DNA of 64,000 nt from Ichthyophthirius multifiliis (Eukaryota > Ciliophora > Oligohymenophorea > Hymenostomatida): contig NW_004085975.1 in NCBI RefSeq assembly GCF_000220395.1, positions 30,338-94,337 of the forward strand. The letters are read 5' to 3'. Each line of letters begins with the position of its first letter. Position 1 is the first letter of the stretch. The notes beneath the pieces were generated by a model. That model was not told the DNA's origin. It saw only the letters and a program-made list of their open reading frames with translations, and made no database searches. Positions 21,041-23,741 of the stretch are shown piece after piece. A program made the position numbers and the translations under genes.

Positions 21041-23741
21041 ATGGATTTAAACACAAATAAAAATCTCCAAGATTTCGTCCCAATCCTCTCAAACGACCAA
21101 CTAAAATAAATTTTAAGTGAAAACTACAACGAATTCTAAGTCTTATCTGATCTCCAAATCGAGAAATCCCACGAAAACAATACATTCACGATAAGCATAA
21201 AGAACATTCCCAAATACACTTTAAAAATAGTCCCTAAAACTATCGAAAACGATCTTTTCGAAAACTCCTTATCTGAGCTCTATACTCATTTACAAAGAAG
21301 CTAATTATCTCATTTATATTAATAGATTGTTACAAATAAATATAATTAGCCATTATCTAATTTCTCTTATTTATTCCGTGAATACCATATTCGTGTTCTT
21401 TCATTATTAAAAGGAACCTATATAGGTGAATTATTCCACAATCTAGGCACTACCTTAGGAAAATAGACTGCTATTCTCTAAAACTTTCCCTTTACAGCCC
21501 AAATGGTAAAGCCTTATAATCTTTGGGACTTAAAAAATTTCGCTTCTTTATGGAAACATGTTAATAATGTAAAAAATATTGAGTAAAGACGTATATGTAA
21601 ATATTTTTTATTGAAATATTAATAAATAATACTGCCTATAACAAACGATCTCCGTCAATAAGTGATTCAGGGCGATTTTAATGATAAAAACATAATTGTT
21701 AATCCCCAAAATATCCAATAGATTAGCGGTTTGGCTAATTTTAATGATATGATATTCTCTCATACTGTTAATGAATTAGCGATTTCAGTAGCCCATGCGA
21801 TTCTTTTAAATTCTTCTTAAATATAAAAAACCGCCTATGATCTAATTTAGAATTTTAATATATAATTTCCACTCCAAATTATAGAAATAGATCATCTTTT
21901 TTGGATTATAGGAGCTCGTTTGTCCACTCTATAAATAATGTAAGCTCTTGACTAGTTAAAGCCTTAATATGAGCTTTCAGTAAAAACCTAGATAATACTA
22001 TGAAGTAATTTTATAGAATAAATCCTTTAAATTTCACCAATTGTGTCCGTATATTATGTAAATAAGAACCTCTTTATAATTAAGAATAAATTGATAAAGA
22101 ACATTCTATTCATTTAACCTAAAGAGCCGCCACTCTTCCTAAAACACTGAGCATTTGCTACAAAAAACCCCTAAATCTGACCCAAGGAACCTACTAATAC
22201 ATCTTTGATGACCGAGGAAAACCTACGTAGACTGTGCAAACAACGTATAACATGTAGGGCACTCACATCCAGAAATAGCCCGCGTGGCAGCAGACTAATA
22301 CAGCACTTTGAATATTAATACCAGATATATATCACCTTACTTATTGAATTATTGTTAAGAAATAGCCGCTAAATTCCCTGAACCACTTAAATATGTATTC
22401 CTAGTAAACTCAGGTACTGAGGCAAATGAACTAGCCTTAAGACTAGCCCGTACATACACGAAAAGTAAGTAAACAATAGTCATAGAACATGGTTATCATG
22501 GTAATTCAAATGCAGTTGTAGAAATATCACATTATAAATTTTCTAGAAAAGGTGGAAGTGGTCCTTAACCATTTATACATTCTATCCCGATTCCCGATCC
22601 TTTAAGAAACTAAAATTTAGACTATGGAAAAATCATTAGAGATATAATTTAAAAAATAAAAGACAAAGGTGAAAAAATAGGAGCTTTTATTGGCGAATCA
22701 ATAATCAGTTTAGGTGGTTATATTGTTCCCCCAAAAAATTTAATGAAAATCATCTATTAAGAAGTAAGAAAAGAGGGAGGAATATGCATAGCAGATGAAG
22801 TCTAAGTCGGTTTTGGAAGAGTAGGCGAGAAATTTTGGGCTTTTGAACTCCATGATGTAATTCCAGATATTGTTTCGATGGGAAAACCAATTGCTAATGG
22901 ACATCCAATGGGTGCAGTGATCACTACTAAGGAAATAGCAGATGCATTTAATAATGGAATGGAATATTTTAATACTTTCGCAGGTACTTAGGTTAGTTGT
23001 AGGATTGCTAGTGAAGTCTTAAGGATTATTAAGGATGAAGAATTGTAGGAAAGTGCGAGAGTTATTGGAAAATATTTAAAAGATAAATTAAGGGCAATAC
23101 CAAGTTTCCTTATTGCGGATGTTAGAGGAGCAGGGCTTTTTATAGGAATGGAATTGTGTAAGAAAAACGGAGTACCCGCAGTCGAAGAGACTAAGAAGTT
23201 GAATGAAAAATTAAAAGATAAAGGCGTTTTGGTAGGAATTGATGGATATTTGTATAATGTGTTGAAAATTAAACCAAGTTTATGTATTACTAAGGATGAT
23301 ATTGATTTTGTTGTTGATTAATTTGCTGCTGCTTTGTAAGAAATCGAAAACGAAATGCCTTTAGAAGACGATAGTATTGTTTTTGTTAATTAATAATAAT
23401 AATAATTTGCTTAATAATCTTAATAATTAGGTTAGGAGAATGGATATAATTATACTGGATTATCCATATAATAATAAAATTAATAATAATAATAATTCTA
23501 ATAATAATGGATTTAATAATAAAAATTAATAAATAGTGAAATTAATAATAGAATGGTTAATACTAATGGATTGAATAATAATAATGGGTTAAATAGTAAT
23601 GGATTTACTACAAATGGATATAATAATAATTCAGTTTATTCTACAGGTATTAAAAGTAATAATTTAGAAAGAAGCGTAAATTTAGAATAATAATAAGAAA
23701 TTCTTAATTCTTTGATTGTAAAAAATTAATTGTTTTCTTGA
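21041..23741 (+). CDS. fused APH/hydroxylysine-kinase-like domain and class III PLP phospho-lyase
   Basis: ATG at 21041, TGA at 23739-23741, no introns; about 900 aa once two one-base discontinuities are bridged (near 21,985 and 22,226). Residues 1 to about 330 are an aminoglycoside-phosphotransferase-like kinase: [11 protein letters not shown] stands for the HGDxNxxN loop and LANFNDM for the IDFGD loop. Residues about 370-790 are a class III aminotransferase fold of the ETNPPL/PHYKPL type: [35 protein letters not shown], the PLP lysine in [11 protein letters not shown], and EYFNTFAGT. In animals hydroxylysine kinase and phosphohydroxylysine lyase act in sequence, and bacteria have similar fused kinase-aminotransferases. 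A Gln/Asn-rich tail of about 110 residues ends the protein. The substrate (phosphohydroxylysine or phosphoethanolamine) cannot be decided. GC is visibly higher than in neighbouring genes. Confidence 0.85.

Follow-up and report, generated by a model that had tools for sequence, protein, structure and literature searches.

The two activities expected in the gene described here are known from animals, where hydroxylysine kinase (HYKK/AGPHD1) and the phospho-lyase PHYKPL (AGXT2L2) are separate proteins; we liken them to a one-chain fusion by pathway, as outlined in the available text of PMC5200902. Human ETNPPL (PDB 6tor) is likewise a stand-alone protein and carries class III phospho-lyase motifs like those reported below. 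Closest in architecture are bacterial proteins that join an APH-type kinase domain to a class III PLP domain (mostly 750-800 aa; near NCBIfam NF004799/PRK06148). Bacterial bi- and trifunctional fusions of this kind were reportedly described by Veiga-da-Cunha in 2012, and the architecture is said to have been used to find the animal enzymes.

We analyzed a window of the Ichthyophthirius multifiliis genome (the whole stretch of 64,000 nt, C837:30338-94337; without N, 16.9% GC, read with code 6, in which TAA and TAG encode Gln). It contains a gene, here called copy A, that resembles the bacterial fusions in domain order, length and end-to-end similarity; unlike them, it has two frame breaks and ends in a Gln/Asn-rich tail, and its kinase site is damaged. 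With moderate confidence, we read copy A as a phospho-lyase whose kinase domain is a pseudokinase, and trace it to a duplicated bifunctional fusion whose copies decayed unevenly. In this scheme, copy A is the ciliate member of a widespread bacterial-type protein consisting of an APH-fold kinase and a class III PLP phospho-lyase. We infer that the ancestral kinase phosphorylated the hydroxyl group of 5-hydroxylysine and that the ancestral lyase, by eliminating phosphate and ammonia, yielded 2-aminoadipate 6-semialdehyde, on which ALDH7A1 acts. After duplication in the ciliate, copy A would have kept a nearly complete lyase site and lost the metal-binding Asp of the kinase; copy B would have kept the kinase loop and metal Asp, with Thr in place of the ATP lysine and a ruined lyase; and copy C would have lost both sites.

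The two-domain architecture is already known; what appears to be new is its occurrence as a ciliate family, the uneven decay of that family, and the operon evidence. No report of a ciliate fusion or of such a decay pattern was found among the open-access titles listed, and the words "lysine" and "ethanolamine" are absent from the main text, as available, of the Ichthyophthirius genome paper (PMC3341644). If correct, our reading would place a hydroxylysine route, in the form of a bacterial-type fusion, in an AT-rich ciliate, possibly a fish parasite, for which collagen of the host could be a source of the substrate. It would also provide a compact case of a two-activity enzyme dismantled after duplication, with sites lost singly while long chains stayed open. 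Hydroxylysine is an amino acid typical of collagen.

Layout of copy A and its frame breaks

Copy A starts on the plus strand with the APH-fold kinase half (21041-22000) and continues into the class III PLP phospho-lyase half, which extends to 23738 (Table 1). An earlier note, made from the sequence alone, had proposed a kinase-like domain followed by a PLP domain in one intronless gene. The order and place of the domains were borne out by matches to Aminotran_3, ETNPPL and bacterial fusions and by the APH-fold model. The kinase frame closes at a TGA (22001-22003, code 6). Similarity to bacterial proteins then carries on one frame back (-1), from about 21997 to 22218, and after a further -1 step from 22218 to 23738, up to the stop at 23739-23741, so that two successive -1 steps lie near the kinase/lyase junction. 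Hence no single open reading frame covers the gene; no intron is needed at the breaks, since the match runs across them and paralogue C reads through. The elevated GC content that had also been pointed out is real, at 0.287 in the kinase half and 0.334 in the lyase half compared to 0.086 in positions 20001-21000 and 0.169 over the window.

Table 1. Positions of copy A features in the window
Feature	Positions	Strand	Basis
Kinase half, APH/hydroxylysine-kinase-like fold, 320 codons (code 6)	21041..22000	+	Alignment to bacterial fusions, structure model
ATP-lysine codon (K62 of kinase half), retained	21224..21226	+	Residue alignment
Brenner loop (QGDFNDKN), with Gln in place of the HxD His and both the catalytic Asp and the metal Asn retained	21668..21691	+	Residue alignment
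AAT codon (N233) at metal-binding Asp position (Asp in 117/117 bacterial fusions)	21737..21739	+	Residue alignment
First break, -1 frame step (place approximate)	21990..22003	+	Frames, alignment, paralogue C
Kinase end, linker and lyase start, second frame	21997..22218	+	Frames, alignment to bacterial fusions
Second break, -1 frame step	22216..22220	+	Frames, alignment, paralogue C
Class III PLP phospho-lyase domain, ETNPPL/PHYKPL group	22218..23390	+	Pfam, PDB sequence match, motifs
Asp D195 (piece from 22212), presumed ligand of the PLP pyridine nitrogen	22794..22796	+	Residue alignment
Lys K225 (piece from 22212), inside a 10-residue motif; presumed PLP-binding Lys	22884..22886	+	Residue alignment
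Gln/Asn-rich C-terminal tail past the end of bacterial relatives, then stop TGA (23739-23741)	23391..23741	+	Alignment; mostly low pLDDT

Other features of the window include a DHFR-thymidylate synthase fusion at 3239-4648 (-; Pfam 3.9e-32 and 1.5e-68), the usual bifunctional form of these enzymes in many protists; a cyclic nucleotide-binding domain at 14533-16392 (+; 6e-19); Beta-CASP/RMMBL domains of an RNA-processing nuclease at 17743-18888 (+), where the match starts within Beta-CASP and the domain is thus partial; the cilia- and flagella-associated protein CFAP91 at 27516-29621 (+; 1e-50); and a tRNA-Trp gene with anticodon CCA at 52699-52771 (+).

The two breaks are most likely one-base assembly errors. 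Alignments to bacterial fusions run over both break points, on which ground introns there were rejected, and paralogue C stays in one frame through both of the stretches that match the breaks. Moreover, in 5 of 20 contig-genes of this genome for HSP70 or Cpn60/TCP1 the match changes frame between segments that overlap or adjoin each other, leaving no room for an intron, which suggests that indel errors are common in this assembly. Assembly error is likely because of this reading-through in paralogue C and these similarly broken chaperone genes, and the copy A mRNA would then be in frame. For the same two reasons, programmed frameshifting was not our first choice. The conserved chaperone genes at L020 (C477), L027 (C226), L028 (C830), L033 (C315) and G000:C2:228445-229439 show either a broken frame or a TGA within it.

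Two breaks within one gene, together with the damaged kinase site, would also fit a young pseudogene in which both breaks are true mutations. We regard this as improbable on balance. The rest of the gene is open, with no in-frame TGA in 318 kinase codons (shuffled mean 4.7; 1/500 shuffles as good) or in 391 lyase codons (shuffled mean 9.2; 0/500 as good), and its terminal branch in the lyase tree is short (0.35, compared to 5.09 for copy C). The same type of break in the HSP70/chaperonin genes also speaks against a pseudogene. In the available text of PMC3341644, the published Ichthyophthirius assembly was built mostly from 454 reads (2,008,917, with 216,200 Sanger reads) and spans 49.0 Mb in 2,015 scaffolds, which bears on the breaks if it is the same assembly as the 44.96 Mb in 937 contigs searched here. 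Still less credible, and the least probable reading that we considered, is that two adjacent genes or a mis-assembly mimic one fused gene. The frame is indeed interrupted between the domains; however, the match to fused proteins spans the junction, and copies B and C carry the same domain order on other contigs.

Kinase and lyase sites of copy A and its paralogues

The kinase half of copy A gave no Pfam match at E<=1 and no convincing match in a PDB sequence search, where the single match was a sucrose synthase at E 0.78; the kinase half of a bacterial fusion (P0001) similarly gave no PDB match at 0.01. Against the fetched bacterial fusions, the best E value was 2.8e-38, as calculated for that set of 120 proteins only. 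The structure model showed an APH/homoserine-kinase domain (mean pLDDT 87.5), and Foldseek placed homoserine kinase 2ppq first (E 9e-11, TM about 0.67). Copy A thus has the predicted APH fold of an active APH-family kinase. It has this fold in common with homoserine kinase and APH kinases, at <=16% identity in the 50 rows listed, and unlike them lacks the metal Asp.

From 121 fetched proteins we dropped 4 outside 740-830 aa and aligned the remaining 117, which are top matches and redundant, with the three ciliate copies. Positions conserved in >=97% of the 117 bacterial rows numbered 24 in the kinase and 128 in the lyase. Copies A and B each retained 18/24 of the kinase positions and copy C 11/24. 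In P0001 numbering, the ATP lysine, Lys46, occurs in 117/117 bacterial rows and is Lys in A and C and Thr in B. The catalytic Asp200 is present in 117/117 rows and in all three copies, and Asn205, also found in 117/117, is kept in A and B and is Ser in C. The HxD His198 is less strict (103/117; Tyr in 9, Gln in 4, Asn in 1) and is Gln in A and C and His in B; the change from His to Gln on its own looks tolerated, given the Gln in 4/117 rows. The metal-binding Asp218 is Asp in 117/117 rows and in B, and is Asn in both A and C; it was also invariant in a separate set of 16 fusions. Among the residues of an active APH-family kinase, copy A therefore has the ATP Lys, catalytic Asp and metal Asn, and an Asn in place of the metal Asp.

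In APH(3')-IIIa, magnesium is coordinated by Asn195 and Asp208, and Lys44, which is Arg in some APHs, orients the triphosphate (PMC3691515, available text). By motif position, Asp208, Asn195 and Lys44 would be equivalent to the three corresponding positions of the fusion kinase. The lost metal-binding Asp leads us to infer that the copy A kinase domain is a pseudokinase. Given this Asn, the earlier proposal of a bifunctional enzyme is not supported in that form. A fully working hydroxylysine kinase/phospho-lyase in which the metal-site Asn is tolerated is rather unlikely. For it speak four retained residues (the ATP Lys, the catalytic Asp, the metal Asn and the next Asp), the well-folded prediction of the domain, and a kinase branch of ordinary length (0.47, against a median of 0.63). 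Against it stand the invariance of the metal Asp in the bacterial fusions, the role of the putatively equivalent Asp208 with Asn195 in binding magnesium in APH(3')-IIIa (PMC3691515, same text), and the Asn that the sister copy C also carries at this position.

By contrast with copies B and C (34/128 and 59/128), copy A retained 107 of the 128 conserved lyase positions and departs at 21. Its lyase half matched Pfam Aminotran_3 at 2.2e-70, and its best-scoring solved relative was human ETNPPL (7.6e-106). We assign PLP-residue roles in the fusion lyase from class III enzymes in general. On this basis, copy A retains the PLP Lys, the pyridine Asp, Tyr and His of YHG, Gln of EVQ, the Thr and Arg, and both inspected Lys residues. 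The class III motifs as seen in the 117 fusions and 6tor (PLP Lys, pyridine-N Asp, YHG, EVQVGFGR, GKPxxNGHP) are all present, but GGNP, whose Asn is invariant in 117/117 bacterial rows, has become AGTQ. In P0001 numbering, Lys609, the PLP lysine, is Lys in A, a gap in B and Asn in C; Asp579 is Asp in A and C and Asn in B; and His472 is His in A, Glu in B and Gln in C. The lyase model, made as a single chain from 32 sequences, had a mean pLDDT of 77.9, with values <50 in the tail, at residues 226-230 and in 249-257; the latter two lie right next to the PLP lysine and in the NTFAGTQ loop. Judged from its residues, copy A would be a phospho-lyase, predicted to release phosphate by beta-elimination from 5-phosphohydroxylysine or phosphoethanolamine.

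Paralogue B (C760:185609-187486) is one open frame of 626 codons, and paralogue C (C638, minus strand, about 7496 to 5224) has one break. Kinase identity to A is 36.3% over 262 for B and 45.2% over 301 for C; lyase identity is 27.2% over 173 and 43.2% over 347, respectively. For B, hhalign gave probabilities of 99.7 for the kinase and 96.4 for the lyase, the latter over 170 columns only. Copy B thus has the kinase loop and metal Asp, no ATP lysine and a wrecked lyase; copy C has lost both active sites; and the kinase site is incomplete in all three. All tested pieces were nevertheless free of TGA (shuffled means 4.7-13.8; <=2/500 shuffles as open), including all 626 codons of B, whose shuffles averaged 13.8, and B and C appear to have been kept open by selection despite their lost catalytic residues. 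Decay may have been reciprocal, with A supplying the lyase beside a pseudokinase, B the kinase beside a pseudo-lyase, the two acting as a mixed oligomer, and C serving as a dead partner or regulator. We consider this doubtful, since a clean split between an A lyase and a B kinase is weakened by the missing ATP lysine of B, which is Lys in 117/117 bacterial rows.

Bacterial gene neighborhoods and the candidate substrate

Cleavage of 5-phosphohydroxylysine is expected to yield aminoadipate semialdehyde, which cyclizes to piperideine-6-carboxylate. We inspected the neighborhoods of the best 80 of 589 bacterial fusion loci. A piperideine-6-carboxylate dehydrogenase gene lay near the fusion in 6/80 loci at an identity of at least about 64% (L048, L050, L071, L074, L075, L083; tblastn). 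Scores above the cut-off of 730 of NF050084 (L-piperidine-6-carboxylate dehydrogenase) were obtained for the gene adjoining the fusion in two gammaproteobacterial loci (815.8 in L075, 819.8 in L083) and for a gene near the fusion in Chitinophaga (L048, 829.9) and Niabella (L050, 837.4). A 2-oxoadipate dioxygenase/decarboxylase gene directly followed the fusion in 5/80 loci (L048, L050, L055, L061, L065), with PF07063 identified in those of L048 and L050, where fusion, decarboxylase and dehydrogenase are consecutive. A pair of genes with saccharopine-dehydrogenase and AlaDH/PNT domains occurred near the fusion in 4/80 loci (L070, L072, L073, L085; tblastn).

Altogether, lysine-catabolism neighbors were present in 13/80 distinct loci, counted around fusions only and leaving out an aldehyde dehydrogenase at 29% (L115) and saccharopine dehydrogenases at 35% (L047, L059). 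The other 67/80 loci had no counted neighbor of this kind; 58 of the 80 loci extend over at least 14 kb and 22 are shorter. In a tally of 124 of the 145 listed neighboring ORFs, two families were commonest, aldehyde dehydrogenase and a glycoside hydrolase, with 4 members each. This glycoside hydrolase (MGH1-like/YgjK/trehalase) lies upstream of the fusion in L041 and L048 by membership and presumably in L050 and L064, where the proteins are 57% identical to that of L041.

A candidate downstream aminoadipate-semialdehyde dehydrogenase is encoded in the ciliate genome, as an antiquitin/ALDH7A1-like gene on C587. One exon of it matched 4pxn first (8.2e-134), antiquitin 2jg7 at 4.2e-128 and ALDH7A1 2j6l at 2.6e-115; scored as single exons, ALDH7A1-like sequences of the ciliate reached 474 and 117.6 bits against NF050084, under its cut-off of 730. 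The genome also encodes a saccharopine dehydrogenase (C512).

The earlier note had left the choice between hydroxylysine and phosphoethanolamine open. The lysine-catabolism genes near 13/80 bacterial fusions favor 5-hydroxylysine over ethanolamine as the substrate, short of proof for the ciliate copy, and the ALDH7A1-like gene points the same way. It is unlikely that phosphoethanolamine, or some other phosphorylated amino alcohol, takes the place of phosphohydroxylysine as the lyase substrate. The best-scoring solved relative, human ETNPPL, is a phosphoethanolamine lyase (PMC8233209, available text), and the two substrates cannot be told apart here from sequence alone. However, in the lyase tree human ETNPPL falls outside the copy A group and joins two stand-alone bacterial-type proteins, and piperideine-6-carboxylate dehydrogenase, 2-oxoadipate decarboxylase or saccharopine dehydrogenase genes accompany those 13 fusions. 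With hydroxylysine as the preferred reading, the bacterial neighborhoods would provide a concrete substrate candidate for a family named "hypothetical protein" or "aminotransferase" in databases.

The bacterial fusion family and the origin of the ciliate genes

Of 7996 proteins scored in a search with the joined copy A protein, 3055 reached E<=1e-3. All of the 120 matches listed contain both PF00202 and PF01636, most with lengths of 750-800 aa, in agreement with the earlier remark that bacterial fusions of related domains exist. Identity to copy A among the matches listed was 36-43% over >=80% of the query; two M23-containing forms (1011 and 1015 aa) reached 47-50% over about half of it. The bacterial fusion P0001 aligned to joined copy A at 38% identity over 96% (E 4.0e-163). 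Among the 120 matches listed for the lyase half alone, identities were 47-53%, and the proteins were fused, M23-linked or stand-alone. Fusion carriers among 50 translated loci belong to about ten phyla, including Bacteroidota, Pseudomonadota, Acidobacteriota, Planctomycetota, Aminicenantota, Calditrichota and Chloroflexota.

By domain order, copy A fits the APH plus class III fusion family (PRK06148-like), with an assembled frame that is interrupted twice. The family model NF004799 is 1015 aa long and named "hypothetical protein". Its cut-off of 1128 bits was passed by the M23 form P0085 (1207.3), which carries a peptidase domain that copy A lacks, and was not reached by the fusions P0002 (948.8) and L083 (968.4) or by copy A, for which only the lyase half was scored (510.7).

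Trees were based on the 50 translated of the 80 bacterial loci, of which 3 with stops were left out. In the unrooted kinase tree (53 rows: A, B, C and 50 bacterial), A and C paired with support of 100/97, and A, B and C together were split from the 50 bacterial rows with 99/98. The position of this group is unsure because of the long branch of B, biased composition and the unrooted tree; terminal branches were 0.47 for A, 1.06 for C and 2.70 for B. A and C likewise paired (97) in the lyase tree, which had 68 rows and omitted B, and stood apart from human ETNPPL.

A recent bacterial transfer is very improbable. The bacterial-type architecture, the absence of a visible intron and the GC content above that of the flanks would fit it, and a bacterial origin had been suggested earlier. 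Against recent transfer are the 99/98 branch that parts the ciliate copies from bacteria, the 36-43% identity to the fusions, with <=53% for the lyase among 120 matches listed, and the use of TAA/TAG as Gln, which is common to A, B and C. Only 10 genes fall within wholly bacterial/archaeal clades according to the genome paper (PMC3341644, available text). An old transfer and vertical descent give the same picture here, since no other ciliate or eukaryotic fusion was found in the proteins searched. A search of 5.8 billion proteins with copy B (7994 word-sharing candidates scored) returned no relative in another ciliate and one match at E<=0.001, the M23-type fusion P0121. At a separate ciliate locus (L005, C894, about 982-3003), an APH-type domain (6.7e-34) lies upstream of what by eye appears to be acyl-CoA-dehydrogenase sequence, a layout that we take to resemble ACAD11.
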